A stretch of 64,000 nucleotides of DNA, from positions 496,001 through 560,000 of the forward strand of contig NC_060259.1 in NCBI RefSeq assembly GCF_921293095.1. The letters run 5' to 3'. Below the pieces are notes generated by a model, which made no database searches, was not told the origin of the DNA, and worked only from the letters and a program-made list of their open reading frames with translations. Both the position numbers and the translations under genes were made by a program. Source of the stretch: Ischnura elegans (taxonomy: Eukaryota > Arthropoda > Insecta > Odonata > Coenagrionidae). Shown in pieces: positions 462-49,889 of this stretch. The stretch's first letter is position 1, and each line of letters starts with the position of its first letter.

Positions 462-1587
462 ATGGCTAGTGATTTATTTTGTATCACAATTGTGCCATTG
501 CGTCTGTATATACCATCGAGTGACTTGACCGTATGGGAGAATCCACGGCCATCTTCGCCAAGATATTGCCGACCGATCAAGTTCTCTTTTAAAAAGGAAA
601 CTTGTAATTTAATCGTTGAGGAAAAGGCATACATGGACGAAGAGATAAATAAATTGAGGCCGTCCATTTGGTTTGATGTTGCAGTTGATCATCATTTGGT
701 TTTGTCGATGGTCGACGGTAAAGCCGTCAGTTCTATTACTGGTATTTCTTCCCAGACTTGCAATGTCTGCAAAGCTACTCCTTGCCAAATGAATGATATA
801 AAACAATTATTATTACGATCCGTAAACACAGATGTATTCGAGTTTGGCCATTCACCTCTTCACGCCTGGTTAAGGATTTTTGAGTATATGCTTCACATTT
901 CGCATAGAGTTGACATTAAAAAATGGCAAATTAAAATCGCCGAAGATGAATCCATTCTTTCAGCATGAAAAAAGTGTGTCCAGGACAGATTTAGAGTGGA
1001 AACGGGGTTGATTGTGGACATTACGAAGAAGGGAACTGGCTCCACGAATGATGGCAATGCAGCGAGGAGATTTTTCGCCCAACCAGATTTGTCTTCAGAA
1101 GTCACTGGAATCAGCAAGGAACGAATACAAAGATTAGGTACCTATCGTGTTGAAAACAGTGGCGTCAAAACGCGCAGTTGATGTGGAAGTTTTTAAGCAA
1201 TATGCTTTGGAGACGGCAAGGTTGTGCGTGGAGCTATACGGATGGTATTATATGCCAGCATATGTGCATAAAATGCTAATTAATGGAAGTGATATCATTC
1301 GTACGGCTCCCTTACCAATTGGTGTTTTGTCCGAAGAGCCAAAGGAGTCCCGAAATAAGGATATAAGGTGCTACAGGGAAAGCAACATGAGGAAAATCTC
1401 TACTGCTACGGTAAATGAAGACCTCTTCAACATTCTTCTGGTATCATCAGACCCTTTAATATCTTCCAAAAGCAAATTGAAAAAAGTGAAGAATTCCCCT
1501 TACCCACCCGAAGTTATGAATGTTCTATTGCCATCAATAGATGAAAATTATGGCTTAAGTGACTCGGATGGTTTTGTTTCTGACTAA
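462..1587 (+). pseudogene. Decayed DNA transposase with RAG1/Transib-like C-terminal block
   Basis: Three adjoining reading segments make one protein relic. The first (462-968) has IWFDVAVDHHLVLSMVDGK, a CNVCKAT cysteine pair and HAWLRIFEYMLHISHR. It ends at an in-frame TGA, after which the same frame continues through TGLIVD and STNDGNAARRFF. A frameshift near 1140 moves the reading to 1147-1587, with WYYMPAYVHKMLINGSDII, LSEEPKESRNK and DPLISS. The last block resembles the RAG1 region around catalytic Glu962 (HKTLAHVPEII, NESGNK), and NDGNAARRFF resembles NGNFARKL of RAG1, which suggests the Transib/RAG1 superfamily. Against this, the aspartate of RAG1 Asp708 (LHCD) reads LHAW here. Many arthropod proteins share this architecture. 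The N-terminal half is missing and no terminal repeats were found, so it is a dead remnant. Superfamily call is tentative. Confidence 0.5.
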
Positions 1588-2164
1588 GTAGGATTAACAC
1601 GAGTAAATTTCGCCTAATTGAAATTTCTAAAAGTGATTATTTTCTGTAAATTGTATAAACATTTAAGTATTGTGAAACACGTTGTAACATTGCTATTTCC
1701 ATTGTAAATTTTGAAATTAAAATTTGTCATTCAAAAAGGAGATACTAGAGTAATTTTAAAGTCACAGGTCATTTAGAAACTGCCCCACTAAATTAAACCT
1801 GGTAAGAACCTCTCATTAAATATGATGGGGCTAATAGCCATTGCCGTTATCTCTCATTCAAGGACGCAGAAAATTTTAAGCTATTGCAAATGAAAGATGA
1901 TAAAATATTTGACAGCTTAAACATTAATTCGCACAGAGTGATAATAATTTCAGCTAATAATTAATTTTCAGGCAATATAGTGAAAACCGGGGGGGATTCC
2001 CTAACCCCCTATTTTTGCCTCAGGTCAAGAGAAAATTATTTTAACCATTTAATAAGGTAAAGTTATCGATATTGAAGGCATTTCAAAAACATTTGCCACT
2101 TATGCGTGCAATATATGCGCCCGACAGACTTTTGTCCAGTCAGGCCGGCCTTTCCGACCACTGC
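1588..2164. other. AT-rich gene-free stretch
   Basis: No open frame of note, no RNA gene and no clear repeat was seen here. It probably holds the decayed 3' flank of the transposase relic and unrelated spacer. Confidence 0.5.
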
Positions 2165-2229
2165 GAGGCGTCTCTGCCGGCAAGCGCTCGGGGGAAGGCC
2201 TGCGGGCGGTCCGGGCGTCAGCGGTCTAC
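2165..2229 (+). repeat. GC-rich dispersed repeat core, copy 1
   Basis: A 65-bp GC-rich block containing GAGGCGTCTCTGCCGGCAAG recurs in the opposite orientation at 9657-9721 with only about two differences. Both copies are islands in AT-rich sequence, and both are followed by a less conserved AAGAAGCGG. The family is not recognised; a MITE or retroelement fragment is possible. Confidence 0.7.
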
Positions 2230-2607
2230 TTACTATCTTCCCACAGACGAAAGAAGCGGTGGGTGAACCGAGGACTAAACGATGGCCAATGTTTTCGAGG
2301 AATTTTTGAATAGCTTAAATTTGTACACATACCCTTGCCGGCTCCTGCTTCTAGTAAAGATTTTCAGAAAGGTTTGAGAGGAGTCATAAAACCCATTCCT
2401 TCCACCCTCAACTATTGTTGACTGAATGGGAAAACCAAAAGGTCTTCTCCATCTGGCGAATGACGTCGCCGTCTTCGGTACCTCTGTTTAAATCAGCAAA
2501 AATGCTTTTTCTACACCATTTGCGAAGTGAACTCCGAACGAGAACGAACAAGCGAGAGATTTTGTAGACGCGTGACCTGCAAAGCCGTTCCTTTTATTTT
2601 CATTGAA

Positions 2608-4347
2608 ATGGTGATTAATCCTAGGAATGTAGTAAAAATATTGGACAGCAAGTTTACTGCATGGATTTCCACAGAAGAACCAACTGATTACGAAATCGAG
2701 TTGGCGGAAATTTTAGCTGGTAAGTTTCATTAATTTTTCCTTGTTTTTCTTACTACGGTGAAGTTAATCGCATCCCATCCATTCTTTATTTTCCCCTGTT
2801 GTAATACAATTTTCCCATTTTCAGATTCCTTGAAGTCCTGTGTGGAAAGCGAAGGATCATCCTGTGTGGTAGAGGAGGATCTAATTTTTGACTTCGAAGG
2901 GAGGACGGAAGAGGAGGAAGTAGTAAGCGAAGATGAATGCGACAGTCCAGATGGAAATGGAGACGATGTTTCTCCTTCTTCTTCGACATCGCACGAGCCA
3001 TCTCCATTGAAAAGGAAGAAAGAGGGTGATGTTAGTATGTCGCAGAAGAAGATGGCAGTGGAATATTGGCGGTCCGGAAAAACTGGGCCACTAAAGATAG
3101 ATACTGTGAGGCACCGTTTTAGGTTCGTGACCTCAAGAAAACAGCTTGTCCGGTTTGAGGAGCAAATTAATCAGGCTGGCTCTCGGAGGGAGAAATTAAA
3201 CGCAATTTCTTCATGCTTAATAGAAAGATTTAGAAGAGCAAAAGAAGATTTCCTGATAGTGCACGACAGTGACTTACGAAGGTGGGCGTATGAGGATAAT
3301 GGCAAAATGACTAATCCCTTAGAAAATTTTTCTGCTTCATCAGGATGGTTGTGGAAGTTTAAAAAATCATATAATATAGTGTCTAGGAAAGTTACCAAAG
3401 TTGTTTCTCGGAAACAGAACTTTGACTGGCAAAAGACATCCGAAAAGGCACATGCTTTTGTAAACGATATCCGGCTATTATTGGCCCAGAAGCCAAATTA
3501 TTTTCTATTAAATACTGACCAGAGTGGGTTTAAAAAAGTATTACACTCGGGACGAACCTTGCATTTCCGAGGAGTGAAAACGGTGGAGTCAACGGTGCAG
3601 TCCCTAGGAGCGACGACCCATTCCTATACCATACAGCCGACGATCTCGATGGATGGTGAACTTCTGTCTCCTTTATTTATTTGCCTGCAGGAGAAAGGTG
3701 GAATTTTTCCAAAAAATGTTTCTGTGTTTGAAGCTCCAAATCTTCACGTCGTAGCTTCTAATTCCGGTTTGTTGACGAAAACCATTTTGCTCGAAGAGTA
3801 TTTTGGTAAAGTGCTGTTTCCAACTTTAAAAAAGGATACAATTCTCTTGGTGGACTCGTGGAGTGCCTTTAATGATAGGGAAGGAATTCTTTCCATGAAG
3901 ACAGGATCATTTCACTTTGAAATGCAGCAAATACCGCCCAAAACTACAGGCATCATACAGCCGTTGGATGTGTATTTTTTCCGTATGTGGAAGAATTTCG
4001 TGAGAAAATTCTCCGACCGTGTGTTGCTGGACCAAATAGACTTAAATTTATTTCAAAGAAATAATATTTTGAAACTTCAATCTCTGACTCACTCACAATT
4101 CTCTGCTCCTTTGTTTAAAAATTTCATTCGCTATTCCTGGTTTCGAGCGGGATACACGAATGAAAGACCAGAAGTGCATATTACACCTGTTGACTATTGT
4201 TTCGATAGTAATATTATGAAGGATAGATGTGAAATTATAGTTGAAGAACAAGGGTGCAACTTTTTGACATTCATCAGATGCGCTATCTGTGCAAACAAAT
4301 GCTGTTTTCACCATTTTTTCAATGAAAATCACAACTGTGAAAAATAA
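2608..4347 (+). CDS. pogo/Tc5-like DDE transposase (two exons, open)
   Basis: Exon 1 is 2608-2719 and exon 2 is 2825-4347, joined across a 105-bp intron with donor GTAAGT and acceptor TTTTCAG. The codon split across the junction reads Asp and the frame is kept, giving 544 residues without a stop. An acidic, serine-rich N-terminus is followed by a helix-turn-helix region like Tc5/CENP-B (GWLWKFKK, about residue 210). Next comes a DDE_1-type nuclease domain with candidate catalytic aspartates at about 269 (NTDQSGF), 381 (LVDSWSAFND) and 419 (IIQPLDVYFFRMWK). The C-terminus is Cys/His-rich (CAICANKCCFHHFF), probably zinc-binding. The protein would cut and rejoin transposon ends in the nucleus. 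The start is the first ATG in frame after upstream stops. Terminal inverted repeats were not found, so a decayed-end element or a recruited host copy both remain possible. Confidence 0.8.
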
Positions 4348-5040
4348 AATACTATAGATCGCCATTTTTGTTATTATTTTATCTATTGAATAGATGATTG
4401 ATTCATAATTATTTTGAGTATCAATGTTTTCACCATTTTTCGCTAAAAAATTAGAAAAATTTGTGCCCTATTTCACTTCTGAATGGGATTTCATTGTTTC
4501 AATTATTTTTATTGCGGACAGTTTTTGGGTGAATTTTTGCCTTGCATTGTATGCATTTTAAATTAAAACGGAAAACTTAAGGATTTTTGATGGCTGGGTA
4601 TCATTTGGAGTTGCGCAAGGAAGAGACTTCCACGAGGTTCATAGTTCAGGACTCGATAAACAGTTATAAACTCGATAATCGGAATACATTATTTGAAAGT
4701 GATCGGAAGTGTTTGAATAAAATCACTCATGAGAAATTCGGGTATCTTAACTTTATTTGGTTAATGGCACCTTTAAAATAACGGAATGTTGGTAAATTCT
4801 TCCAGAAAGAGAAAAAAAGAGTGGCTTGTGCTAAAGGTAGGGTTTTGTCTATTCCTTCACGGGGTGAGGGTAAACGATTGGGTTTTTCCTCAAGCTAAAA
4901 GGAATATTTTCTATTCGAGAATCCAGACAAGGGAGACGCCAACTATCGGCCGAATTCGAAAGTAGAGCTTCGAGGGAACCTTTTTGTGGCTAGGCATTTA
5001 CCGCAGTAAGCCACGTTGATCAAGCATTGGAATTGTTCGG
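4348..5040. other. 3' flank of the pogo-like gene, no gene seen
   Basis: AT-rich sequence with no supported coding region. It should contain the 3' UTR of the transposase gene and possibly the element's right end, but no inverted repeat matching the left flank was recognised. Confidence 0.4.
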
Positions 5041-5430
5041 TATTCTCTGATTTCTGTAGTTATTTTGTTGACATGAAGCTATCATTACGTCGTAAGCAAT
5101 ATATTTTATCCATTGATATTGTGCTTGAGGCTTTTAGTTTGGTTTAATTGCTACAATTCGTCACTCAACTACACAACGTTGGTAATATAGAAACACGTTG
5201 CGAAATCATAGGCATTGTAGGGTAGGTAGGGTAAGTAGTCAGTTTTCTCTGGATAAATTGTTAGTGTTAAGCTTCGATAACTTCGTTAGTAATGTATTTT
5301 ATGCATTTATATAAATGTGTTTGAGGTCTTTTAATTGATTTGATCACTGCAATTCATCATTCCCCTTGACGGTAAACCCCGACGGTGGGAAACCACGTTG
5401 AGAAATCTTTGGCATTGTTGGGTATATTGT
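5041..5430. repeat. Diverged direct repeat, about 191-bp period
   Basis: Two successive copies share landmarks in the same order: a TATTTTAT run, a CTTGAGGCTTTTA/TTTGAGGTCTTTTA block, a CAATTCGTCA/CAATTCATCA block, an AAACACGTTGCGAAATC/AACCACGTTGAGAAATC block and GGCATTGTAGGGTA/GGCATTGTTGGGTA. The copies are clearly diverged. They lie just outside the inverted arm at 5440-5640 and may be subterminal repeats of the same element. Confidence 0.6.
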
Positions 5431-5439
5431 GTTTTCTGT

Positions 5440-5640
5440 AATTATACTCGACGGCAAAAACAATTTTTTGAGACCTGATACCATTCCTGCTAATTATTAT
5501 GCAAAATGACCTCCTGAATCCGAACATGACATCCGCTTTCATCCATCACCTACCATTTTCAGGGGAAAGCCCCCACTCTAATTTTCATCACTTTCATATG
5601 TCTTGGAGGAATGAAAATGATTATATTAGAATTTATATTT
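5440..5640. repeat. Left arm of a long, diverged inverted repeat
   Basis: The reverse complement of about 8095-8285 matches this segment through GACACCATTCCTGCT, AAAATGACCTCCTRAATCCG, CCATCACC-ACCATTTTC and TTGGAGGAAT. The arms are separated by roughly 2.5 kb without genes. They could be the ends of an old long-armed DNA transposon or foldback element. Confidence 0.6.
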
Positions 5641-8094
5641 CTTATTAGGTTTTTTAGAGGTGAAAAGTTCTAAAACATGATAATTAATGGTAAGGTTGTA
5701 GATTTGGGGGGATTGATTTCCGTTAATGATTTAAAAAACCCATTAAAATGATGAACCTTTCCTTTTTTCGCCATTTTTTACTTATTTTCTTCATTTTTCA
5801 GCTCCTATTTTATTTTCCCCTACCCCAAATATCCTACAATGATGGAAAAATATACATATCAACAGATTATATCAGCAATAATAAAAATATTTAGGTACAC
5901 GGCATAGAAAAAATAATGAAAATGTGTGCCAACAGTTGAGAAGGTACGCTACCATGCTGGTGCCCTCAATACCACACGCGCATCAACAAAGAAAAAAATA
6001 ACCAGTGTGAAGTGAAGTAGAAGTTTCTCATGCAAAAACAGCAGTAGGCCTAATATATCAACATACCCGCATTCAATTTCCCTGAAAATCTCCTCACAAA
6101 TTTGATGATGTCTTTATAGAACCTTTCCCTGTGTTAATCTGAAACTGCTCCTAAATATTCTATGAAAATATCCAGGTGTGAATGAAGGAAATGCATTTTT
6201 AGTGACACGTTAAACCCCGTGGCCTAATACGCTGACAGCAGTTCACACGTTTCTGAGCTCATTCTCACAGCTAACACACGTTTCAGAATCCAAGCCAAGC
6301 TCGATTTTATTTATAATTCAGGTGTTTCATGTACGTCGAATCTTTGAAAAGTTTCCTAATCTGGGGGTCCACGAATTCCTTCCTTGGTTTTAGCCTCACT
6401 AATTGTAAGACGAGGAAATTAAGTTAGAAATTGAAATTCAGCTCCTGTCTTTTCGATTGCCTTCACAAAGTATTTCATCTGTCTTAATTTGATGTGCAAT
6501 GGTGGCAAGTGAATATTTTCTGTCGAAACCAGGGAAACATAAGCAACATTTTTATAACCATGAGTAAAGCTTTCTCGCCGAGGCCAATTCCGTACTATGT
6601 AATGAATTTTCACGGGCGCGGCTGTTGTATTCACAAAGAAAGCAGCACTATTTCGTGAAGCCTGATTGCAGTCCCATGAGTAGAGCGACAACTTTCAGAT
6701 CAGCGCAAACTTACCAATTATAATCACGATAATTCTTTCAAGGATTCAACAGAAATATCTGTACGTCTCCTTCATATCAGCAGAGTATGCAGACAGGACA
6801 GAAGGTAACTCATTCCCATTGGCCAACAGGTCCACTTTAAAGCTTGTCTTTGACGAATCCATAAACAGTCTCCATTTTTTGGGTCACATGGCATCATCAG
6901 TTCTATCAATAATGCATTTAATTACAGAAAAAAACAAGCCTTTACCTTCCATAAAAAGTAATTTCAGTGCTGACTGACAGGAAAAGATTTTTATGCCCTA
7001 TTCTAAGGGATTGTCATTCATTTACGCGAAACTATGTGCCATATGCTACAGTGGTTTGACCAAATATTTGTTTAAATTACTGTAACAAGTGGTGCAACAA
7101 ACACTTGGAGCTTAATTCTAGTCCTGACCGCCAACTTGACCGCCAAAGTAAAATTTATAAGCAGTTTTAAAAATTATAAGAAGAGGTAATTGTTGCGATG
7201 CTTAACTCAATTCACCGCAAACATAGTAGAAGCGATGAGGATGATTTTTACACATTTAATCTCGGTAATGATCACAACTCAAGCCCATATACTGACATTC
7301 ACTTGGAAAAAGCCGGAGTGAAACAACTTCTACTGTAATCCTTGTGTAGGCTTTCGCGGTGTGGTGAGGATTCAGCGTGGAGGTTTTCGGGGTTACTACC
7401 GCGTAGATTCTGTAGATTGATTTGCGATCAGATTTGTCTGCAGAGATGAATCTATATGTAACCCCGAAAACCTCCACACTGAACTTCTACTGTTTCGCAC
7501 AATTTTAACTACTTGGAAAAAAAGGATCATCCTTGTCCGAAACAGCGAAAAATGTTGACTCTGCGATTGCTAGAGATACCGAGGGAAGATTACGACAACT
7601 TCAGTACACACAATTGATTAGAGAGGCTGATACTTTGTGCAACTCCATTCTTATGGAGAAAGAATACTTTTTAACTGAAATGAGAATATAAAATCTTAGT
7701 CTTATATTTTTCGTGGAATAAGGAAGTATTACTTTTCCTTTTTGGCTGCGAAAGCTAAGAGTATTGCCGTCCAAGGCTAAGCGGGCGAGGCATTGTGAGG
7801 GCCAGCGTAGTAAAGTGAACCTTCCGAGGTATTGATACAAATTTTAACCATTGTTGCTATGCAGCAAAATATTTTTATTATTGCTGCTGTTTCTTGTTTT
7901 ATATATATTTTTATCATTCGGTGGAGGAAGACGTGAAATGGCAGCTGGAAAATTTAAAAAATACGTGAAAATTTGCGAAAAAATGGCAAAATTGATAATT
8001 CTTAATGCGTTTTCACACAATTTACGGAGACTTATTCCCCCCGAATCTACCTCCTTGCCATATTTGCACCCCTCAAAACCCTTAGAAAAAATTT
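5641..8094. other. Interior of the 5-8 kb inverted-repeat structure, no gene
   Basis: Only short random frames occur here and none has recognisable motifs. The one structured item is the hairpin at 7376-7479. If the flanking arms are transposon ends, this is its non-coding or fully decayed interior. Confidence 0.4.
7376..7479. repeat. Inverted repeat with 22-bp arms
   Basis: AGCGTGGAGGTTTTCGGGG near 7376 is matched by its complement CCCCGAAAACCTCCACACT near 7479, with about 60 bp between the arms. A shorter outer repeat (ACTTCTACTGT) occurs on both sides in direct orientation. It may be a small foldback or MITE core. Confidence 0.6.
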
Positions 8095-9721: not shown

Positions 9722-10272
9722 GCTGCCGGCCCGTAGTGAGGGGCCCTTCGCCTCAAAAAGGGTGGCCGGCGCGCAACTTTGGATGCAGATATCTCGGCTC
9801 ACAGGGCTTAAGGGCACGGGAAATTTTGCAAATTCCCATTAATTATGGAACACTACCATCCCACCAAATTTGAACGAAATCGGCGGAGGACACTTCGTGA
9901 ATGTTCCTTGTCAGTGCCACGGACTGGAAGTAGGGAAGGAAGCGTTAATGGATGGGGAAGGTACGCTCGCTCAGCACAAATATTTTACATTTTTCCTCAC
10001 CGCGAAAACTTGAAAGACCGCGAAATCCTAAGTAGTTCAGTGAATGCTGGTTTGGTTAGTGAGTTTGGAGGGCTGGGGGGCAAACTCTCTCACGTGCCCT
10101 CCCCCTATATCCGCCTATGGGCATGCACATTGCACATTCCTAAAATTTTCCGGTTGAGAGGTCTCCCATTGAGAGGGCCCCCATCATGAGCTCTAGCCGA
10201 GGGCCCCCAATCACCCCACATCGCCCCTGAATGAGTTGCCTTACTAAATCAATGCTAGCTCCTAAAGCGTAA

Positions 10273-10317
10273 AGGCTGGGACACAATCAACGCTAACGTG
10301 AAACGGTTACGGGAACC
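10273..10317. repeat. Left terminal inverted repeat of the Harbinger element
   Basis: Starts AGGCTGGGACACAATC and matches the complement of 17438-17482: about 29 bp are perfect, and the rest is recognisable but imperfect (ACGGGA-type blocks). Confidence 0.9.
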
Positions 10318-10460
10318 GGGAGAACGTGAGACGGGGAACGCCACTGAGCGGTCACAATTGACGTTCCCGTGGCCGGAAAGAAAATTGACTAACGCCCGCG
10401 CAGTGGTTTTGTTTGTGGTCTTCAGTCTTTTCGTTTGTGTGTAGGAAGAGTTTTTGAAGA

Positions 10461-11920
10461 ATGTTCGAAATTGACGAGGATACGGCCATGTACCTTGGTA
10501 TCATGTTAATGACATCAGGGTACATGCTGTACAAAAGAAGAAAACGGTGGTACAACAGGAGGTGGTGGGTTAGGCCGATTAATCAAGATCGGGAGCAACG
10601 AGGGGCATATTCCAACATTTTCGCGGCTATGCGGACCATGGACGAGGAGGAGTTTTTTAAATACACAAGGATGAGTCGAAGGCAATTCGACACATTAGTG
10701 AAACTCTTGACTCCGTTGCTCAAGAAAAGAAGCCAGAGGAAAGCTCTTTCCGTTGGTCAGAGACTGGCGATGACTCTTAAGTAAGTATTTGCGTTATTAC
10801 GTGGCAGTCTTCTCGTACCTATAATTGTGATGTTTATATTTATACCGTGTTAATTTTAACATTGACAGATACTTGGCACATGGAGGTAGCACAAGTGCAC
10901 TGGGGTGGGAGTACTACGTGGCTAAGTCGACTGCACAAAAGGTGCTGAAGGAGACATGCCAAGCCATTTGGAGAGCTCTCTCTCCAAAGTATTTGAAGAG
11001 ACCTCAGGAGGAAGACTGGCGACGCATTGCAGACGGCTTTCATTCAAAATGGAACCTCCCCAATTGCGTTGGTGCTATTGACGGCAAGCATATTGCCATA
11101 CAGGCACCCAGCAATGCTGGAAGTTTATTTTTTAATTATAAAAAAACGCATAGCATAGTGTTGATGGCTGCCTGTGATGCTGAATACAACTTCACGCTCA
11201 TTGATATTGGAGCATATGGTTAGTAATTTCTCAGATCGAACCAAATGTTATAAAGATGACCCTGTTGCCGTATCATCAACATTCACCCGCAGTGGTATTG
11301 AAATATATTTGTTAATTTCAGGTTCCCAAAGTGATGGAGGAATATTTTCAAGGGTTATCGGTAGAGCTGTGGAAACAGGTGACATTGTTTTCCCTCCTCC
11401 TGAGGTAATTCCAGGTATGGCCCAGGAGATGCCATATTACCTTGTGGGAGATGCTGCCTTTCCTCAACGGAAGTGGTTGATGAGGCCATATCCTGGAAGG
11501 AGCCTGAGCCTGCAAAAATCAATTTTCAACTACAGGCTCTCTCGGGGCAGGAGAACGATAGAAAATGCCTTTGGCATTTTAGCTTCGAGGTGGAGAATTC
11601 TTAGAAGTGTTATGGTTGCACAGCCTGACACTGTGGAGGCATATGTGTCAGCTTGTGTGTGCCTTCATAACTTTATCAAAAGTGAAACTTGTGGCTCAAG
11701 ATTTTATTGTCCCCCAAATTATGTTGATTCCGAAAATAATGGTGTGGTGAATGAGGGAAACTGGCGACTGGAGATGGCAGCATTGAGAGGTGTTGGGAGA
11801 TTAGGGGCCAATATAGCCACCAGGGTGGCATATGAACTCAGGGACATGCTGGCTAATTATTTCATTACAAGGGAGGGAGAGGTACCTTGGCAATATCACA
11901 AGGTAACCAGCATAAACTGA
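10461..11920 (+). CDS. Harbinger transposase (DDE nuclease), three exons
   Basis: Exons are 10461-10780, 10869-11218 and 11322-11920. The introns are 88 and 103 bp, with donors GTAAGT and GTTAGT and acceptors GACAG and TTTCAG. The spliced frame is open for 422 residues, a normal length for the family. The DDE_Tnp_4 nuclease fold is marked by GAIDGKHIAIQAP (Asp about 178), VGDAAFPQRKWLMRPY (Asp about 267) and RRTIENAFGILASRWRIL (Glu about 304). The GAYGSQSDGGIFSR block, broken by the second intron, also fits the family. The N-terminal region with FFKYTRMSRRQFDTLVKLL is the usual pre-nuclease segment. The enzyme would cut the element ends and insert at TWA sites, aided by the MADF partner encoded on the other strand. 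The start is the first ATG of the frame, 188 bp inside the left end. Confidence 0.95.
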
Positions 11921-12023
11921 TATAGTAGAAAATGTTATGTATCCACATATCCCACATCATAGTTACTTTCTATTTTATTCTGCCTCAAAATAGGCAACAT
12001 AGTCAAAGAAATGTAGGGTAGAG

Positions 12024-13510
12024 TGGGCCACAATGAGATTTTTCAAGTTTACCAATGCTTTTCGTTTTATGTTCTAGATTTAGGGTAGCAGAGGAAGGTA
12101 CATTGTATCAACTGGAAAATAATAATGTGAATGTTGTCTCATTGTAGCCCAATATCCCCTGCATTTATTTTACTATGTTCACTATTATGAGGCAGTGGTT
12201 AATTTTTCTAGTGTAGCATTGCTTTTCGTTTCATTTTATAGATCAATGGTAACACAGCAAGGTACATTGTATCCATTTGAAAATAATAATGTGAATGTTT
12301 TCTCACTGTGGCCCACTATCCCCTGCATTTATTTTACTATGTTGACTATTATGAGGCAGTGGTTAATTTTTCTAGTGTAGCATTGCTTTTCGTTTCATTT
12401 TATAGATGAATGTTGACACAGCAAGGTACATTGTATCCATTTGAAAATAATAATGTGAATGTTTTCTCACTGTGGCCCACTATCCCCTGCATTTATTTTA
12501 CTATGTTGACTATTATGAGGCAGTGGTTAATTTTTCTAGTGTAGCATTGCTTTTCGTTTCATTTTATAGATGAATGTTAACACAGCAAGGTACATTGTAT
12601 CCATTTGAAAATAATAATGTGAATGTTTACTCACTGTGGCCCACTATCCCCTGCATTTATTTTACTATGTTGACTATTATGAGGCAGTGGTTAATTTTTC
12701 TAGTGTAGCATTGCTTTTCGTTTCATTTTATAGATGAATGTTGACACAGCAAGGTACATTGTATCCATTTGAAAATAATAATGTGAATGTTTTCTCACTG
12801 TGGCCCACTATCCCCTGCATTTATTTTACTATGTTCACTATTATGAGGCAGTGGTTAATTTTTCTAGTGTAGCATTGCTTTTCGTTTCATTTTATAGATG
12901 AATGTTAACACAGCAAGGTACATTGTATCCATTTGAAAATAATAATGTGAATGTTTACTCACTGTGGCCCACTATCCCCTGCATTTATTTTACTATGTTG
13001 ACTATTATGAGGCAGTGGTTAATTTTTCTAGTGTAGCATTGCTTTTCGTTTCATTTTATAGATGAATGTTGACACAGCAAGGTACATTGTATCCATTTGA
13101 AAATAATAATGTGAATGTTTTCTCACTGTGGCCCACTATCCCCTGCATTTATTTTACTATGTTGACTATTATGAGGCAGTGGTTAATTTTTCTAGTGTAG
13201 CATTGCTTTTCGTTTCATTTTATAGATGAATGTTAACACAGCAAGGTACATTGTATCCATTTGAAAATAATAATGTGAATGTTTACTCACTGTGGCCCAC
13301 TATCCCCTGCATTTATTTTACTATGTTGACTATTATGAGGCAGTGGTTAATTTTTCTAGTGTAGCATTGCTTTTCGTTTCATTTTATAGATGAATGTTAA
13401 CACAGCAAGGTACATTGTATCCATTTGAAAATAATAATGTGAATGTTTTCTCACTGTGGCCCACTATCCCCTACATTTATTTGACTATGTTGCCTGTTGT
13501 GAGGCAGTTC
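12024..13510. repeat. 164-bp tandem array, about nine units
   Basis: The landmark GGCAGTGGTTAATTTTTC recurs exactly every 164 bp (12191, 12355, 12519, 12683, 12847, 13011, 13175, 13339), and the first and last units are diverged. Inner units differ at linked sites: TGTTGACACA goes with TTTTCTCACTG and TGTTAACACA with TTTACTCACTG, alternating from unit to unit, so the array has a 328-bp two-unit period. It lies between the 3' ends of the convergent genes. Open frames inside it are products of the repeat. Confidence 0.95.
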
Positions 13511-14005
13511 ATTAATAACATTTCCTTGTATGATTTTCATTTTATGTTTAATACATGCCTGTCTACCAGATCTGCTTATAGTTATTCATTATTGAGGGGA
13601 CAATTATTGTATAGAAAACTTTGACTCTACTCTTAGTCCTCAAAATAGCAAATACATTCTTTACTCATTCTGTTACCTCAAAATGCTGGTAATCTTCTTC
13701 ATTCAATTGTCAGATGATTAGTACTTTAGGTTTAGGGTGCTAGAGTTAGCTGCAAAGTTGTATGGGGACACACAGATGCTTGTACCATGCTACTGACATC
13801 CACAAATGATGCCATAAAGCAAAATTGGGAAGACTTCTACATTTTATGGTTGATAATTTGCAGAGCGCAGACCACAAGCTATTAGTAGCTCCTACAGAAA
13901 ATAAGTGGCAGAAATACACTGAGAGAAATGGAAAACTGGTTAAGAATTGTGAAGGATAAATATCAAAGGCAATCAGGCTTCTTCATTCGTTTGCTGAGCA
14001 TTGAT

Positions 14006-16670
14006 TTATTGGTCTTCAAATGAATACATAACTTCCAGAAGTTTTCTTTTAGCCTGATTCTGCTGCTTGCTCGAAAGCCTTCTTAAATTGCTCAAAAGGC
14101 TACGGCAAAACAAGTCATTCTCGTCTTCCTCATCCTTTTTCGCCTTCTTCTCGGAGAGGTACTTAGAAAATCCTGAGAGGCTGCTGACAAGTGCAGTCTC
14201 CAGGTCAGCTCCCTGCTTCCTTTTCCTCAAACTAAAGGTATCGGGGGAGGGAGAAAAAGACTGAGGTGTATGTTCAGGGGAAGGGGAGCCAATTGAAATA
14301 GTATCAGGTGATGGTGCGGAGACAGGGATGGTTAAGGAAGCAGATGAGGGACTAGAAGATTCTGTAAGCTCGAATGAAGTGGGTGAAGAAAGAGGTAAAG
14401 AGGGTTTAGGAGAAGGTGGTAGTTCTGGGGAATCAGAAAGAGTGAGCAGAGGGGAGTTAATAGGGTCCCTGCAGTTGCCAAAGGTCCTGCAAAGTTGAAG
14501 CAAATGACATAGATAATGCTCTCATATCGCTATGTGATTCATGATTTGTCATAATTCATTATAATACAGTAACAACAGGCATTTGTCATAGATTACTAAA
14601 TCCCACTCACTTCCGAGCCCTGATAAATGGCTGCAACCACATCATTGCCTCCTTAAGTGGCCATCCCCTTCTTGGCATTGCACCAGAGCCAGAGGGTAAT
14701 CCACTAGAATCCGCCTTTAACTCGCGGACAAAGCGATCACGAAGGGTCCCCCAACGTGAAGAGCAATCCTGACCTGTAAGAGATATGCATGATTTGATTA
14801 GATTAAAAGGACCAGGAAAGAGAACATGAAGAGTATTTAGTTTCCAGTAAATTAATGAACATCAAACCCCTCTAGAATATTTAAGATCTAGTAAAATTGG
14901 TCGAAAATGCCTTGCATTGTGGTTAATATAATTATCATATTTTTTATCCAGAAGATCATGTTACAGAGTGCCACAAAACATGGATACAGAACATGCCATT
15001 GAAGTTAGGCAACCAAAATATATATTTCCAAAATGTACATAGCATCATAATAGGGTCACGTGCACATATTAATGTGACTTGGTTAAGTTATCATGAATAT
15101 CTGATGAATATCTCCTGATTTGTCCTGAGCCTATGGAGGTTGAGCTGTGTTAACATACACAATAAAAATATGTATAGGCATGGTACTATGAGAAGTTCCA
15201 GCTCAACAAACAGTGGTCAACATGCATCTTATCTTCTTCATTTACCCATGATTGCTCTTAATGCCCTCTTCTGCCGGAGAAACTCTTGGCTTAGGAAAGT
15301 AACTGCTGATCCCCAGAATATATGGCATAATTGACTATACTCAGGAAGTTAAAATTAAACAAGGTCATAAGTACCCCATGGGATAGAAAGTTTCTTAAAA
15401 ACCTTAGTCCATACAGGACCACATATAATTTTACAGATAGATTGTTGACATATAAAGACCAAGTTCCAGTCTTCAATGATCAGACCCATGAATTTTGTTT
15501 TAGTTGTTGGACAGAGATGGAGATTTTATAATTCTTAGTGCTTAAAGGAGTATAATTATTTAATAGCAGTAGTTTGTTTTCAAGATATTCAAATTTAATC
15601 CGTCGGTTGCACTCTATTTCCAAACAAAACATCATCTCCTGACTACAGCAATGATGTTTGATCACATTGAGAGATATGCTGAAATCCTGCTCAACTATCT
15701 CAATAAGTACTCTGACATGCAACAGACTTGATTATTTTTATTTATCTACCAAAAGAATTCACACATTCAGAGGTACCTAGTAAAGCAGGTTTTTTCAGGA
15801 TTTTCATGCTTGTATACCATGCGATGAGCACTCGACGAAATCTTATTGCACTAGATCACATTAATACAAGTTCAGGACGAAAAAAAGTCAAAAAGACTTG
15901 GAAATTTTCATGACAAGGGAGGGACAAAAGTCACACATTGGGGTATGAGATAGCTAATATGCTGGAAGGATGAAGATGATCACACAGTCTTGCTAAATAT
16001 AACCTACATATTTGCATGCCTGATGCAGTTGATGACAACATTTAATGATGAGATCTCTCTTCAAATGTTTAGTTGTGGTGAGAATGTAGTCACTACATTC
16101 TCACCACAACTGTCAGAGAAGGATAGTCATTTCCTACGTCATAAGCTATATAATCAACACCCACTTGTAAATGTTTGTTAGTCTTACACTTGCTATTGAG
16201 CCCATTTCTTAACTTCTTAAAGAGCATGGTGATGATAAAAAAACATATATGCATTCTAGGGTATATTTGCTTCAAGTTATTTATGCTACTAACACATTTA
16301 TGACACAAAGCATGTATAAGTATTTAAGTTTTGCTGATAATTGTTACCAATTCAATATATCTGTATTACAGCTATTTGAGAAATCTAGGACGTGTAACAA
16401 CTATACGACCCAAAAGGACCAATGATCCGTTTTTTTGTTTACAAGAAAGATAGCGAATCGACCATTGACTCCAATGGTAAAAATCCTCCAGTGAAATGAA
16501 AAACTGCCAAGAAGTAAAACAAAAATTAACTTACCACTTGCTTTCAAGACTTCACCTATGGAAGCCCACACCCTGTCTTTCAGGGAAGTGTCCCGGAATT
16601 CCTTTCTGCTCCGGTCATACAACACCGGGTAGTTTTTTACCAGATCAATTAGTAACTCGTCATTCTCCAT
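14006..16670 (-). CDS. MADF/BESS DNA-binding protein of the Harbinger element
   Basis: Coding exons, in reading order, are 16670-16535, 14773-14611 and 14486-14006, giving 259 residues with all phases kept. The N-terminal MADF (Myb/SANT-like) domain starts MENDELLIDLVKNYPVLYD and contains KEFRDTSLKDRVWASIGE. Exon 2 carries its end, CSSRWGTLRDRFVREL, and a GWPLKEAMMWLQPF segment. The middle is rich in Ser, Pro and Glu. The C-terminus (DLFCRSLLSNLRRLSSKQQNQ) looks like a BESS protein-interaction motif. In Harbinger elements this second protein binds the ends and carries the nuclease into the nucleus; that role is inferred from family knowledge. The ATG begins directly after an acceptor (TTTCAG), and a donor at 17155/17154 suggests a non-coding leader exon and a 5' intron of 484 bp. 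Confidence 0.9.
16071..16111. repeat. Perfect 41-bp palindrome
   Basis: The 20-bp arm AGTTGTGGTGAGAATGTAGT is followed by one C and then its exact complement. It lies in the 1.76-kb intron of the MADF gene. In RNA from either strand it would form a near loop-less 20-bp hairpin. Confidence 0.95.
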
Positions 16671-17437
16671 CTGAAATATAAAAATGGATGTAGTGCAAAA
16701 TTTCGATACATTAATTCCATTTTATCCATAAATACACTAAATTTCAACCTCACTTCACATGAAACTCGCAAAACACATTAGGAAGTAGCTGTGAAGAAAA
16801 GTTGTATTAAACAGCATCCAAGTGCTATTACATTAAAAGTACATTATCAACGCGTCATTTTGTAAATAGCCAAACAGGAACTCAAAATGATGTACTAAAA
16901 AAAAACTCAACGAAAGGAATTTTGATTTTCGAACGTAAAAACTGTTAATTACGGGCTGAAAACAATGAAAACTTAGCGTACGTCAGTACTACCAGATATG
17001 CGTTAAAATTATGTGTTTAGCCGATGAATTTAAGAGTGTTTGGCACATCACCATGGGAAGATAGCATCTCGAAAGAATTAATATTTTCTTCAGTAAATAA
17101 TTGCCGAGAGGGGGACGATAGTATGCATGTAAATTAAATTAATTAATGGCTTACCTTAAATGAATCCTCTTCAGCTCACGTTGCACGACAACAACAACTG
17201 GTATATTCAGCAATGGGCGCCAAAAATGCTGTATCGCTGTGTGATGCCGTAGATACCTTTCTCTGCCAACAGGTGGCTCCCATTTTCGGGTTCCTCCGGC
17301 TCTTCTGATTGGCTTTCCGTGTACGGGACACGGGAAGAGATGAAAGTTGCCCATCTCTCGCGTTTACGTACTCCCCGTAAACGGTGGTTGTGTCCCTTCC
17401 ATAAGCTTTCCCTTCCGCCATCTTTTTACCGACTCCC

Positions 17438-17482
17438 GTTAACGGCTCGCGTCTCACGTTAGCGTTGATTGTGTCCCAGCCT
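17438..17482. repeat. Right terminal inverted repeat of the Harbinger element
   Basis: Ends in TTGTGTCCCAGCCT, the complement of the left end, and is followed by TAA. The leader of the reverse-strand MADF gene would begin just inside it. Confidence 0.9.
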
Positions 17483-17485
17483 TAA

Positions 17486-17903
17486 CACATAAGCAGTACA
17501 ATAGCGACGCCATTAAATGTCATTACAAGCAAATAACATTATGGCAACCTTGTGGCAGCAATAAAATCATAACAAAGCTATGGTTTAACACTGATAAGGC
17601 CTGCGTTGAAGAAAAGGAATACATGCAAGAAGGTGCTCAAGCCGGAATGATTATTAAAATATAACAGGTAAACTTACCTTAAACTACGATGAATTCCTAT
17701 TTTGAGCATTAACTGCGCGAAGTGTAGCACTAAAACATTGCGGGTAGAAACGTCTTTGTTTTGTTTATACAAGTCGTCACAGGCAAACTTTATAGCTACG
17801 TCTGGCGGTAACGAGGAAGTTATTCCTTAAATACACACAAATTACACAAGCAATATAAAAGCGAGTGAATGGCAGAGAAATATACAACGATTGCCATTAG
17901 AAT
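17486..17903. other. Gene-free stretch right of the Harbinger element
   Basis: AT-rich sequence with no supported gene or repeat. It runs up to the SINE pair. Confidence 0.4.
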
Positions 17904-17950
17904 AAATTCCCCTGGACCGGGAACCGAACCACGGTGTTAGGCCCTCGCGG
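17904..17950 (-). repeat. tRNA-derived SINE fragment, reverse copy
   Basis: Read on the reverse strand it has a pol III B box (GTGGTTCGGTTCC), then CCGGTCCAGGGGAATTT, which matches the forward copy at 18105-18200. The part that would hold the A box is poorly conserved. Confidence 0.55.
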
Positions 17951-18104
17951 TCCACCAAGGATGGAAACGCGAGGGAGAAAGGACTTCCAAGAAGCCACAA
18001 CCGGTTGAGAGCCTCAAATCTGCGCTAAAGCTGCGCAAAGCGGTATGCGTAACAGCTGGTACCATGAGCCTCGGTATGATTTCCACGAGAATTAAAGAAC
18101 CTGG

Positions 18105-18200
18105 ATAGCGTAGTGGTCTGCGCAGTGACCCGGAAATCCAAACGTCCGTGGTTCGATTCCCGGTCCAGGGGAATTTGTTCTCATGGAAATTCTTGCAAAT
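18105..18200 (+). repeat. tRNA-derived SINE, forward copy
   Basis: An A box (TAGCGTAGTGG) and a perfect B box (GGTTCGATTCC) are spaced as in a tRNA. CCTGGAT and GTCCAGG can form a seven-pair acceptor stem. The sequence continues past the tRNA-like part into GGGGAATTTGTTCTCATGG, which the reverse copy at 17904 shares, so this is a SINE and not a working tRNA gene. The two copies form a foldback with about 170 bp between them. Confidence 0.65.
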
Positions 18201-18311
18201 ATAAAAGCGAGCTTATAGTTTCAATGCAAATCATGACAATCAAACCAACGCAACGCCCAAACGTAGCATGAACATCATAACGTACGTGTGAGTGAAGAGT
18301 AACATATTTAA

Positions 18312-18533
18312 CCCTTTCTAACCGAGAGCTGTTTCTGGGAGAAATCAAATTTCAAGATTTTTCATTTGGAAAACTTGAAAATTTTACACTCAATGATAAT
18401 TACCCTGCCAGCTGAATATTTAGTCGTTAGAGTTTACAGTACAAAATACTATTTAGTCTAGATATCTCCTAAATAGAGCTGAAAGTTTAAACATTTTTGA
18501 TGTTACTTAGAAGCAAAATTGGGTTATAAAGTG
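18312..18533. mobile_element. 222-bp TTAA MITE, copy 1
   Basis: TTAA flanks both sides (18308-18311, 18534-18537). The termini CCCTTTCTAACC and GGGTTATAAAGTG are roughly inverted. Internal landmarks GCTGTTTCTGGGAGAAATC and AGATATCTCCTAAATAGAGC are shared with the copy at 43440. The TTAA duplication suggests piggyBac or Kolobok mobilisation. Confidence 0.85.
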
Positions 18534-18539
18534 TTAAGC

Positions 18540-19023
18540 TGCGTTACCGAAGGAGATTCAATAAAAGAAGGGATATACCGTTATATAGATGTTATGTACC
18601 GTAATAGATACTAATGAACCGCTTAAGCTCACGTATACTGGCCGACTGAATGCCCTTCGAAATAAAACAAAAAAAGGCGAAAGCATATGCCATGCTATTA
18701 ATAAACACATTTAAGTACAAAAAAAAACAACCTTTTGCACACCTGTCCACACTTGATTCTTCACTGTGTGCAACAATACTCGCTTTGTAACACAAGAGCT
18801 TTCACGGCGTAAATCCTGACATGATTAATTATAATAACACAAGTATTAAGGCACGTATTCAAATACATCTGCATCTATATTACCCCGTAAGTACTAGGAC
18901 ACCAACCGTTGACAAAATTAAACGGAATGCTATAACGAAGTTGCACCTAGCATTTATTAAAGTCCTTTATTGATTGGGAGATAAACAAATATCCATACCT
19001 ATCCCTTAGGCAAAATATCTCTC
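18540..19023. other. Gene-free stretch between two MITE copies
   Basis: No coding region was seen. A short CATCTGCATCTATATTACCCCG motif near 18867 weakly recalls the dispersed repeat at 39605 but is too short to assign. Confidence 0.35.
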
Positions 19024-19027
19024 TCAA

Positions 19028-19249
19028 CCCTTCATAACCCAGGGCTGATTCTGGGAGAAATTGTACTTCAAGACTTCTGATATTAAAAATGTGAAAATTT
19101 TATAATTATTTATTATTATTGCGGCAGCTACATATGTCGCCATTAAAATTCACAGCGCAAAAGAGCACATAGTTTAAATCTTTCCTGAATAAAGCTGAAA
19201 ATGTACACATGTTACATGCTACTTAGGAGCAACATTGGGTTGTAATGGG
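19028..19249. mobile_element. 222-bp TTAA MITE, copy 2 (diverged)
   Basis: Same length and orientation as copies 1 and 3. It starts CCCTTCATAACCC and ends GGGTTGTAATGGG. The right flank is TTAA; the left now reads TCAA. Internal identity to the other copies is lower, so this is the oldest of the three. Confidence 0.8.
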
Positions 19250-19253
19250 TTAA

Positions 19254-22200
19254 TTTGTCGCTCCTATCGGACCTATAAATTCAGTGAGGTTCTAATAAAA
19301 TGTTCTCCGTCTCGCTCTTAAAGATATCTATTACGCATGGTTAAGCAATCAAATCCTGGCGCACGGCCTTAGAGTTTCTAGCGGCTCCCACCCTAATTCG
19401 TTTAACATCTGTGTAACGCTAATCTTTTAACACCTACATAATTATTCTGTTATACGTCCTTCATCACCAGCCTCTATACCCAGAGAATTTGAAATTTCAA
19501 AAACATTCGGCGAAACATCTCTCATAATTTATCGTTCCTGGTTCCACTGATTCCGGATTAACTGTGGTACAGCTAACCGAGTAAAATTTGGTGACATTCG
19601 AGTCGCAACACTTTAGTCGGAAAAAAATTCATGATATGTTCAGGCTTTTTACCATTGAAAAGTTTAAATAAAAAGGAGGCAAGCATGCATTCCCTCCTTG
19701 TTTTAGTTTTAAGCCATTCTATCTTAGAAAAATATGGTTAGGAATACATACAATAGCATAAATGACAGATCATCCTTGTACGCTGCGGCTATTTCATCGC
19801 GCATGATTAATTTAAATAATTCAGACTCTTGCACTGTAATTTTTCTATATTTTCCTCCCATCAGGGAGAGGGCTCAGAACTTTATGCACCCCCCTGGAGA
19901 GAGTGATCCTTTGCCACGTCCCTCGCTGTGATCAGTGAAAATTCTTCACGAATGCCAAGTTTGGAATCTGCGGCTCCAAACCTCACTGCAGTGTGTGTCG
20001 TGTACAGCCCCCTCCAACTCGGCTGTTACGCCGCTAGTTGGCTGGCCCCAAAATCCTCCCACGTTATTCAATTTTTTTAGTTCGTTACAGAGTGGCACTG
20101 CGAGCCTGTCGCGCGCCCAGTATCGCGTTGCTGTTACATTCATTTCAATGGTGAACCAGCGAAGCTCATCACTTGGAAGATGTGTTATATTGCTGAAAAG
20201 CTATTAAATTTGAAGATGGATCGTGCATCGCGCTTTTGATATGTGTCTAATAATTCTACAAGATACAGGAAAACCAGGAAGGAATGCTGAGCTGAAAATA
20301 AGTTTTTTCAAAGCAGTGGTAAGTACTCAAAATGCGGTGGGTTACCGATGTTAGTTTTATGGCTCTGTTATCGTTAATTTGGTAATTTTTTCGTGGTTTT
20401 AGATCTCAGTGACCTCGTTTTTTAGTTGAAAATATGTGTTATTCGCTAAGAATAAATTAGCGGTGCAAATAGATAGCGGAAATACTGCAGTATCTGCAAT
20501 GGCGGCTTTGTTTACTATTCCATGCATGCCCTTTCTCTTGTTTTTAAAGAGGATTTGGCAAAGCATCCGATATTTATTTACGGAAATTTTTATTTTTTAT
20601 CTTCGCGGGAAATCAATGGTTCATGTTTTTCACATAATACCGAAATAATATCATGCCATGTTGCCGTGGAGGCATAGTTCCATCAGTTTTTACTAATTGT
20701 GTTATTGTACTTAATTACAATTGTATAACCTCGGTGGTTTCGTAGCTCGCTTTGCAATTAATTGATGGCTTTAGATATTTAGTGAAGAATTTTGTGTCAG
20801 TACAGAAAGAGGAGGAAAAATATCGCTCCACCACGAATTGAAAACTTGTATTATTTCATTCCTATTAGATACAGTTGTGCAGTGAATTTATGTTTTTATG
20901 ATCATGGTGAAAGTGTAAATGTGCATCCTACTCTAGTTTTAGGACTTAATGACAGTGAAATTATAATGGTAGCTTCTGTTATCTGGTGGGATATCATTTA
21001 TGGCGCCCTAGCGATAGTTATGCTTGCATCCATGCTCATTTTATGCAAGTATTGATGTTGTTTAGCGTACAATTATATACACGGACTAACGGTGATCCGC
21101 CTACGGATGTTGAAATATAATTAATTTCATATTTTTTTTACTTCTGTGGATTTGCTGCCATTGCAGTTTAGAAATTGTTGTAGTTGTAAACAAAGTGCAA
21201 CAACAGTAATGTGGTCATGATATTTTTTGCTGAAAAGGGGCAGGGGTTACTATCTGTAATAAAAATGGAAGTCATGAGAATAGAGTAAATGGTGGTAATA
21301 TTAAGAATTGAAAGGATGAATTTAGCTCTTGATATTTGCAATCGAAAATTTGGCCCCACCCTTTCATTATGATATTTTTCTCGTGCCTCAAAGCCTCACA
21401 TTTTTGGTGTGACATAACCTCGTGTAACGCCATTATTAGCTAACTGTGGAGATTTTTCGTGGTAAAAGTACTGTCATTCCACATTTATAACTGATACGAC
21501 CTATAGGATTGCAACTCATTTTTTTAATATATTTTTTAAAATTTTGCCTAATTTTGAAAAATTTCTATTTCTAGGCGGTCATTCATCTCCAGATCTTTTT
21601 TTGAAAAGTTATACCGCCACAACCGTGGAAAACCCTCAAATCTTCATGAACTTCGAGATTTATTTACATTTTTCACACTTCCAACCTTTGCCCTTATCCT
21701 TTAAGCTCGCCTGTACAGTGTTAATGATAGTGCTTGTGCTTTCATGAATAAATGCATTTTTAATTCAACAACAATCACTTCCTTCAACTACCGTTCCCAG
21801 ACGTCCCCTTTTCCTTTACATTGGTTGCTGTTTCGGTTGATCTTGTGATGTGTATTTCGGTGACTTTCTTGGGTTAAGAATTTAGCAAGGTGTTTTTGTT
21901 GTGCCTAGTCTTAATTAGGGTTCTCAAACGTACATTTTCCATTTCAGAATAACCCTTAAGTCTTAATCCAATCTTAATATGAGTCGTTATGTGAAGCTTT
22001 CAGTAATTAATTTTGGGCCAGTTTTTCTCATTGCGGATCTTGTAATTTCTGAATCGGAGATAACCGTATCCTCGTAGCTACCAGTTTAGGATTGCCTGTT
22101 TAAGGTGACTTGACTTGGAGGAGGAAACGCCGGCTCGATTGTCTGTATCGCCAATTTTTTTTGGGGGGACCGATACCTTGATAATTATATGTCAGGCAGT

Positions 22201-35946: not shown

Positions 35947-38125
35947 ATTATTATTATAGTATTCTACCGATTAAGGTAGGTTTCCATGGATGCTAAAGAG
36001 GTGATCTGGGAGCCTCCCTTTCCTTCCAGCACTGCCTTCTTTAATTCACAGTAAGGCCTACTCTCTTTCAACCTATCTAAAAATCCTATTCTTTTCCTTC
36101 CCCTCCCTAGTTTCCCCAACATTCTACCCTCCAAAACCATTTTCAACATCCCCTCACCGCTAAGCACTAACTCCATCCAAACCTTCTGTCTCCTGCGTAT
36201 CTCATCTAAAAGCGTTCTCTCCTCGCCAACCATATCAAGCACTTCGTCGTTCCTTTACCTCTCCGTCCATTTCACCCTCTCCATTCTTCTCCATACCCAC
36301 ATCTCGAACGCCTCCAATCTTCTCTCGTCTTCTTTCCTCAGAGTCCACGTTTCCGCACCGTAGAGAGCTACACTCCAAACCAAACTCTTCACTAACCTTT
36401 TCTTTAAACTCTTACACAACGATCCTCTCAGAAGCTCCTTCCTGCTCATGAACGCCTCCTTTGCTAATGCTATTCTCTTCCTGATGCCCTTACTACTGTA
36501 TCCATTTTCCTCTAACGTACTGCCTAAATAGTTGTATTGCTCAACCTGCTCAAGTTTTTCACCACCCACCTTTATCTTGAGTCTCACATTCCTCGCTCGT
36601 GATGCTTTACAAAACCGCATTACCTTAGTTTTCTTGTGATTAATCCTCATCCCAAACTCCTCGCAACGTTCGTATAACGCATCCACTAGGGCCTGAAGCC
36701 CCCTTGCTGACTGACTGATCAACGCCTGGTCATCCGCGAATCTCACTGATTTGAACATCATTCCTCCCACTTTTATCCCAGCTTCTAACTCATCCCACGC
36801 TTCCCTTACCATCTCTTCAGCATACACGTTAAAGAGCAGTGGCGATAGAGGACAGCCTTGCCTCACACCTCGGCCAATGCTTGCCCACCCAGATTCTCCG
36901 TCCGCTATCCTCACTTGCGCAGTCTGGGCCATATACAGATTACAAATCAGTCGTCTATCCCTCCCGTCTACACCTATTCTCTTGAGTATATCCATTAACT
37001 TTACCCAGTTCACCCTATCAAACGCTTTTTCAAAATCCACGAAACACACATATACGTCCTGCTCATATTCTAGGTTCCTCTCCACGAGGGCCCTCATTAT
37101 TGCTATTGCATCACGAGTTGACTTCCCTTTTCTGAAACCAAACTGATCTTCGCACAAATACTCGTTTGCCCTCGCCTCAATTCGTCTGTTCAATATCCTC
37201 AGCACTACTTTAGCCGCATGGGATATTAGGCTGATAGTCCTATAATCTCCGCATTCCACAGCTTTCTTCTTTTTCGGAAGCGGAATTAAAACCGTCTCCA
37301 CGAAATCCTCCGGCCAACATCCCTCCTCATAGATCTTGCGCACTAGTTCGAAAAACCTTTTCTTACCTTCCTTCCCTAGATTCTTCAGAAGCTCACACGG
37401 GATGTTGTACACGCCTACTGCTTTCCTAGCCTTCATATCACGGAGTGATCTCTCTATTTCTGAATCTAATATCTCCGGCCCAAGATTATCCTCCTCCACT
37501 GCACTTTCCTCCTCTAGAGTCATTCTCTCTGGTCTGTTCGTTCCGTCATACAGGTCCTCCACGTATTCCTTCCACCTACCCTGTACCTCTTCTCGCTCGG
37601 TTAGCATCCTCCCATCTTTAGCCTTAATTTTAGACATGGCTTGTCCTCTTTTGCCGACCGATATCGACTTAACTTTGGCGTACAACGCGCCTACTTCTCC
37701 ATCCTTCTGGAACTTTTCCATTTCCTCGCACTGTCTTTTCCACCAAGCCTCCCTTGCCCTCTTAGTTTCACGTCGTAATCGATTATTCAATTCCCTATAC
37801 ATTCTTTTGCCCTGTTCTGTGTCCACGTTTTCCACTTCCTCCTCTCCTCCATTTCATTTACCATTGCCTCCGTTATCCACGGCTTCTTTATCCTTCTACT
37901 GTCAACGTAACCAATTGACTTCTCCGCCGCTTTGACTATTCCCTTTTTTATATTATCCCATCTTTCCTCTACCGTCTTGGTACTTTCAATTGCCCTTATA
38001 CTAATGTCCACTAGCTCCTGATATTCTCTCCTCATACTTCCCTTCAGGGCTTCTACGTTCCATTTCTTCGCCTTTCTAACTTTCATAAGTCTTTTGAATC
38101 TTACGTTACGTTGAGTATAAAACAT
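35947..38125 (-). mobile_element. RTE-type LINE, 5'-truncated
   Basis: The element reads on the reverse strand. Its 5' end starts inside the linker before the reverse transcriptase, so the endonuclease is missing, as is common for LINEs. It ends in a short 3' region with TAATCGGTAGAATACTATAA and an ATT microsatellite tail at about 35947-35958, typical of RTE. No target duplication was resolved. Confidence 0.8.
35964..38125 (-). pseudogene. RTE-like reverse transcriptase
   Basis: Three segments follow in order. 38125-37787 is the linker (KKWNVEALKGSMRREYQELV, KKPWITEAMVNEMEERRKWK), and a frameshift near 37830 leads into the main frame at 37835-36255. That frame holds the whole reverse transcriptase: GDYRTISLISHAAKV, QFGFRKGKSTRDAI, CFVDFEKAFDRVNW, GVRQGCPLSPLLFNVY, the catalytic FADD box at 36729-36740 and YNYLGSTLEENG. 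Its tail is YGAETWTLRKEDERRLEAFE. One stop at 36255 interrupts the frame, which then continues as 36242-35964 (GRGRKRIGFLDRLKESRPYC). With only one frameshift and one stop visible, this is a fairly young dead copy. RTE is chosen over CR1 from the YGAETWT/WRRM tail and the short microsatellite end. Confidence 0.85.
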
Positions 38126-49560: not shown

Positions 49561-49889
49561 TCACCAACTATGGATATGGAGAGATCAAGAAAGTTAAATC
49601 AAGAAAGGGGAGATCAAGTCAAGTTAAAAATTCTTGTGGAAAAGTGCTACGATCTTTTATTTATTTAAATATGTCTAACTTCCACCAATTGAAGCCTGAA
49701 TCTGTTGGACTTATTAGATTTTACCTTTAAAAACCTCAAACCCAGGGAGTGGAAGATGAGTAAAATGAGAACATAAGACTTAAGACATGAAAATGGACAC
49801 GCCAGCCGTTCCCATCAACACCGAATGTTATTGTTTATTTCAGATATTCCGATTACTATTCAATAATCCTCAAGTCCTCAATAATCAAT
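49561..49889. other. Spacer before the CR1-like LINE
   Basis: No feature was recognised; it probably includes degraded 5' sequence of the LINE. Confidence 0.3.

Follow-up and report, generated by a model that had tools for sequence, protein, structure and literature searches.

Two-gene transposons of the PIF/Harbinger superfamily whose second gene encodes a MADF protein have been described in insects (PMC9710019; Casola et al. 2007, cited there). Studies of rice and zebrafish elements indicate that both proteins are required for transposition, and for the zebrafish element nuclear co-localisation depends on the Myb-like partner (PMC9710019). Work with mPing and PIF/Harbinger proteins in yeast likewise found two element-encoded proteins to be required and miniature inverted-repeat transposable elements (MITEs) to be mobilised (PMC2836001). 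Here we describe an element of this kind from a 64,000-nucleotide stretch of the Ischnura elegans genome (C19:496001-560000; the window, to which all coordinates without a prefix refer). The element spans 10273-17482, that is 7210 bp, with exact coordinates, and combines a DDE_Tnp_4 transposase, a second gene with a MADF DNA-binding domain, a duplicated TWA (TAA/TTA) target and terminal inverted repeats (TIRs). Judged on these sequence features, it is in our view, with a probability of about 0.95, a complete, recently inserted DNA transposon of the autonomous type belonging to the PIF/Harbinger superfamily.

Ends, target site and the two convergent genes

The sequence AGGCTGGGACACAATCAACGCTAACGTGA starts at 10273, and the reverse complement of AGGCTGGGACACAATCAACGCTAACGTGA stops at 17482. 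When the outer 33 bp of the left and right ends were aligned, 32 positions were identical and a single one was mismatched, defining the TIRs, which are flanked by TAA on both sides. In the 1.72-Gb genome the exact pattern of TWA followed by the TIR was found 81 times (36 forward, 45 reverse; the ends of full-length, deleted and MITE copies are pooled in this count), whereas a reversed control pattern gave 0 matches, so these ends do not owe their occurrence to chance. Two internal TIR-like motifs accompany the ends, and their scores were equalled in 9 of 1000 (left) and 3 of 1000 (right) mononucleotide shuffles. Since the TIR core, at up to four mismatches, also matches at two further places in the element body that are as good as the left motif, the latter, with its four mismatches, is undistinctive; of the two, only the right motif, with two mismatches, stands out as a candidate.

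The three predicted exons of the transposase gene, separated by introns with GT donors and AG acceptors, join into a single open frame of 422 amino acids (aa), which matches the complete DDE_Tnp_4 profile (PF13359; profile positions 1-158 of 158, E 1.7e-29). Going by the family motifs, the catalytic triad would consist of D178, D267 and E304, at spacings of 88 and 36; in the PDB we found 0 relatives of the protein at E values up to 1. The second gene runs convergently, and its three exons likewise join into a single open frame, here of 259 aa, with a full-length MADF domain (PF10545; profile positions 1-84 of 84, E 6.8e-19) and a BESS motif (E 3.2e-6). Because the ATG of this gene is immediately preceded by AG, a noncoding exon presumably lies upstream of its exon 1. 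A sequence-only reading of the window had announced a complete two-gene Harbinger element with matching ends, a TAA duplication, a transposase with D, D and E residues and a convergent MADF/BESS gene, both genes open after splicing, and the ends, the duplication, both protein families and both uninterrupted frames were all recovered here. Positions of the individual features are collected in Table 1.

Table 1. Features of the transposon in the window, with their positions and, where recorded, the basis of the assignment.
Feature	Position	Strand	Basis
Left target-site duplication, TAA	10270..10272	.	sequence; single TAA at empty sites
Left terminal inverted repeat, 33 bp, 32 matching the right end	10273..10305	+	
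Weak internal TIR-like motif, left end, 11/15 TIR core bases	10349..10363	+	
Transposase exon 1	10461..10780	+	spliced frame, Pfam
Transposase exon 2, first D of the putative catalytic triad	10869..11218	+	spliced frame, Pfam, D/D/E positions
Transposase exon 3, second D and E, stop	11322..11920	+	spliced frame, Pfam, D/D/E positions
Array of 164-bp tandem repeats, 9.0 units, lying between the convergent genes	12038..13508	.	
MADF/BESS gene exon 3, BESS motif, stop	14006..14486	-	spliced frame, Pfam
MADF/BESS gene exon 2	14611..14773	-	spliced frame, Pfam
MADF/BESS gene exon 1	16535..16670	-	spliced frame, Pfam
Internal TIR-like motif, right end, 13/15 TIR core bases	17382..17396	-	
Right terminal inverted repeat	17450..17482	-	
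Right target-site duplication, TAA	17483..17485	.	

Insertion site, further copies and selection

To look for empty sites, 250 bp from either flank were joined with one TAA between them, and the product was run against the genome. Among the 40 of 939 candidates that were scored, the joined flanks were uninterrupted at a minimum of eight places: two showed 100% identity over 500 bp, a third 99% and the other five 88-94%. The element therefore broke into one copy of a dispersed repeat and duplicated a TAA. One further copy of this repeat, at C2:145320500-145325500, is 99.67% identical to the right flank over 2441 bp (up to the end of the fetched piece) and 99.45% identical to the left flank over 362 bp. 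The interrupted host repeat (9911-10272 and 17483-19923 or beyond) is dispersed and itself young, and its right part contains a 228-bp stretch that is repeated internally at about 73%.

Further copies were searched for with the left end and the right end, and since 40 of 149 and 40 of 164 candidates, respectively, were scored, the copy counts are lower bounds. We compared 12 copies other than MITEs, namely the window copy (W) and 11 others. Both ends are present in 7 of the 12 (W, C7, C2, C1, C4, C19b and the short deletion copy C6d), and in six of these seven the two TWA duplications are identical, C4 being off by one base. Three copies are almost indistinguishable from W: the transposase coding sequence differs at 0 (C7), 1 (C11) and 1 (C2) of 1269 bases, and the noncoding parts at 5 of 3076, 10 of 3494 and 8 of 3546 positions, respectively (0.16-0.29%). 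An older set, C4, C1, C6h and C19b, has diverged by 2.6-4.2% in noncoding sequence. Frameshifts disrupt the transposase of C4 and C1, that of C19b is incomplete, and for C6h none was detected within the fetched stretch. C9 and C19d go back further, at 9-11% divergence, and C19c has a right end only within the fetched stretch. Among the 12, W alone combines the two ends with two open frames and is free of inserts, which makes it a good reference copy for its family. The near-identical copies at 0.16-0.29% noncoding difference and the two empty sites at 100% mark the insertion as recent and show, at the level of sequence, that the element was recently active.

Near-100% identity across the element body is also what segmental duplication, in place of transposition, would produce. 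The flanks of W, C7, C2, C6d, C11, C4 and C1, however, share no mutual BLAST similarity at E 1e-5, and the target duplications differ among copies; given the unrelated flanks of these seven copies, we rejected segmental duplication and consider it extremely improbable.

The family also includes MITEs. Seven short copies of 503-537 bp were fetched. Each combines the leftmost 210 bp of the element with its right end, and TTA stands on both sides of all seven. Sharing both ends and the type of target-site duplication (TSD) with the full-length element, they qualify as Harbinger-derived MITEs. They are 94-99% identical among themselves and 94-95% identical to W, and are therefore older than the latest burst of full-length copies.

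Coding sequences of older copies were compared with the window genes in terms of the ratio of nonsynonymous to synonymous divergence (dN/dS; C19c and C6d are excluded from the codon counts). For the transposase the ratio was 0.18-0.35 in five comparisons (C4, C1, C19b, C9, C19d) and for the MADF gene 0.17-0.37 in four (C4, C1, C6h, C19b), a fifth MADF comparison, with C9, giving 0.20 on 44 codons only. Change was more frequent at synonymous than at nonsynonymous sites in all nine comparisons tested (one-sided Fisher p from 1e-17 to 0.034, with rounded counts); the C9 MADF comparison was omitted from these tests, and the nine are not independent, as the copies share ancestry. In both genes, most of the differences from the older copies fall on synonymous sites, so selection has kept both proteins; the codon data support selection on both, as expected if both serve transposition. 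The measured ratios probably understate the constraint on the active lineage, given the decay of the older copies. As a separate observation, synonymous divergence in the MADF gene (14006-16670 of the window) is 0.08-0.11 in the comparisons with C4, C6h and C19b, higher than the noncoding divergence from the same copies (0.03-0.04).

A synonymous excess in both frames would also fit a pair of domesticated host genes derived from a Harbinger element, and co-domesticated pairs of PIF transposase and MADF genes are known in insects (PMC9710019). Such a pair would be a fixed host locus devoid of TIRs and TSDs, the absence of which is taken in PMC9710019 as support for domestication. The locus described here, in contrast, has intact TIRs, a TSD, unoccupied sites elsewhere and dispersed copies. 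We rejected domestication on the TIRs, the TSD and the empty sites and give it next to no credence.

Several observations weigh against an element that is complete, recently inserted and of the autonomous type. Beyond the TIRs, the inner stretches of the two ends resemble each other no more than expected by chance, an equally high score being reached in 94 of 1000 shuffles. The splice sites of both genes were read from sequence, so the gene models are predictions. In C7 the MADF gene lacks its 3' end, and the adjoining stretch is missing too; C11 stops 79 bp before the right end; in C2, transposase intron 1 is occupied by a 4.57-kb insert that has a 6-bp repeat (1570-6138 of the fetched piece L024), both frames of C2 being otherwise open; and C6d is a near-identical copy with an internal deletion. 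The fetched MITEs, judged by their divergence, are older and so were not amplified by exactly the window copy. Moreover, the high identity could also stem from a single earlier burst that has since fallen silent. The insertion may be recent and intact while going unexpressed through host silencing, which is compatible with a recently inserted autonomous-type transposon and differs from it on present activity only. Near-identical copies are few (C7, C11, C2 and the deletion copy C6d), and each is altered, which speaks for silencing; W, on the other hand, keeps both frames, the splice sites and the ends intact, and at two empty sites the 500 bp compared still show 100% identity. We put present silence at somewhat under an even chance.

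The sequence-only reading had called W a recently active copy and a good reference, and had proposed a genome search for copies with the same ends and a comparison of synonymous with nonsynonymous change. The search yielded the copies described above and the comparison low ratios in both genes, and both claims stand, the first of them for recent and not for present-day activity.

The tandem array and the neighbouring elements

The 164-bp tandem array between the convergent genes varies in length from copy to copy, with 9.0 units in W, 9.0 in C2 (6.4+2.6 across a fetch boundary), 7.0 in C11, 4.6 in C7, 3.9 in C1, 3.0 in C19b and 2.0 in C4, so that the near-identical copies alone span 4.6 to 9.0 units. 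Even W and C2 arrange their unit variants in different orders, so turnover is faster in the array than in the rest of the element. As an array, the unit was found only inside the element's family, in a search with a 276-bp query that returned 13 candidates and skips very common words. We rejected the idea that the unit is a genome-wide satellite, the only matches outside the family in that search being two short partial ones of 48 and 52 bp. Each unit contains AATAAA once, on the MADF strand, and part of the unit recurs in inverted orientation, 83-90% complementary, in a 59-nt stretch just past the transposase gene (11980-12038).

On the + strand, none of AATAAA, ATTAAA, AGTAAA and TATAAA occurs in 11921-14320, the 2.4 kb past the transposase stop. 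We do not regard this absence of a polyadenylation signal as remarkable, because zero signals also came up in 9.8% of the runs of a first-order Markov simulation in which the array was reduced to a single unit, so the absence is not significant. Our examination of the array found no evidence for a function, the + strand absence being within chance, and we regard it as improbable that the array is a functional, fast-changing module, such as a terminator block separating the convergent transcripts or a source of double-stranded RNA. Its variable length, its restriction to this family, the AATAAA in each unit and the inverted partner would fit such a module.

Elsewhere in the window, Tc5-type transposase domains (Transp_Tc5_C, E 1e-12) were recognised in an open frame of 537 aa at 2734-4347 (+). 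Two open reverse-transcriptase frames (RVT_1) of 532 and 413 aa, at 36255-37853 (-) and 49791-51032 (+), are probably parts of retrotransposons that lack long terminal repeats (non-LTR), and a fragment of a Mutator-like transposase lies at 62277-63116 (-) (PF20700, E 7.2e-18). The element had been set apart from decayed elements around it, which is only partly right: the contrast does not extend to the interrupted repeat, so close to its other copy, or to the three other transposon and retrotransposon frames (413-537 aa), which are open.

Comparison with described PIF/Harbinger systems

If the element works as others of its superfamily do, its DDE transposase would excise it at the 33-bp inverted ends and join it into a TWA target, which would be duplicated. 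The MADF/BESS protein most likely binds the ends, and perhaps the internal TIR-like motifs as candidate sites, and most likely recruits the transposase to the DNA and to the nucleus, like the ORF1/Myb-like proteins of known Harbinger elements. Proteins of the element's family most likely also moved the MITEs of about 500 bp that have the same ends.

Because two-gene PIF/Harbinger elements with MADF partners are already on record for insects (PMC9710019), we class the window element as a new family within a known kind. It is clean and well supported, if ordinary, and leaves the picture of the superfamily unchanged. Since the same assembly also offers sister copies, MITEs and empty sites, this intact copy is a useful reference for annotating the family, and it lends itself to testing how a MADF/BESS partner works in transposition, the step that underlies repeated co-domestication of these gene pairs in insects (PMC9710019). 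DDE_Tnp_4-type loci are otherwise numerous in this genome (150 of 765 candidates were scored, and 11 of those rows represent nine copies of the element's own family). At least one other Harbinger family, at L062 (G000:C4:59879200-59881600), also has a convergent MADF/transposase pair, and its proteins are 38% (transposase) and 39% (MADF) identical to those of the window element.

With the insect PIF/Harbinger elements of PMC9710019 that carry a MADF gene, the window element shares a transposase of about 400-500 aa, a Myb-like/MADF protein, a 3-bp TSD and TIRs. Compared by description only, its TIRs are longer (33 bp versus about 15 bp) and, unlike those elements, it has a variable 164-bp array between its genes. 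The MADF protein encoded in the window adds a BESS motif, and the term 'bess' does not occur in the main text of PMC9710019. Harbinger3_DR of zebrafish also has two proteins; nuclear co-localisation requires its Myb-like partner, which interacts with the transposase (PMC9710019). Again by description, that partner is termed Myb-like, whereas the window element has a MADF/BESS protein. A further parallel, also drawn by description, is offered by mPing, a plant element. In that system, too, two element-encoded proteins are required and MITEs with common ends are mobilised (PMC2836001).

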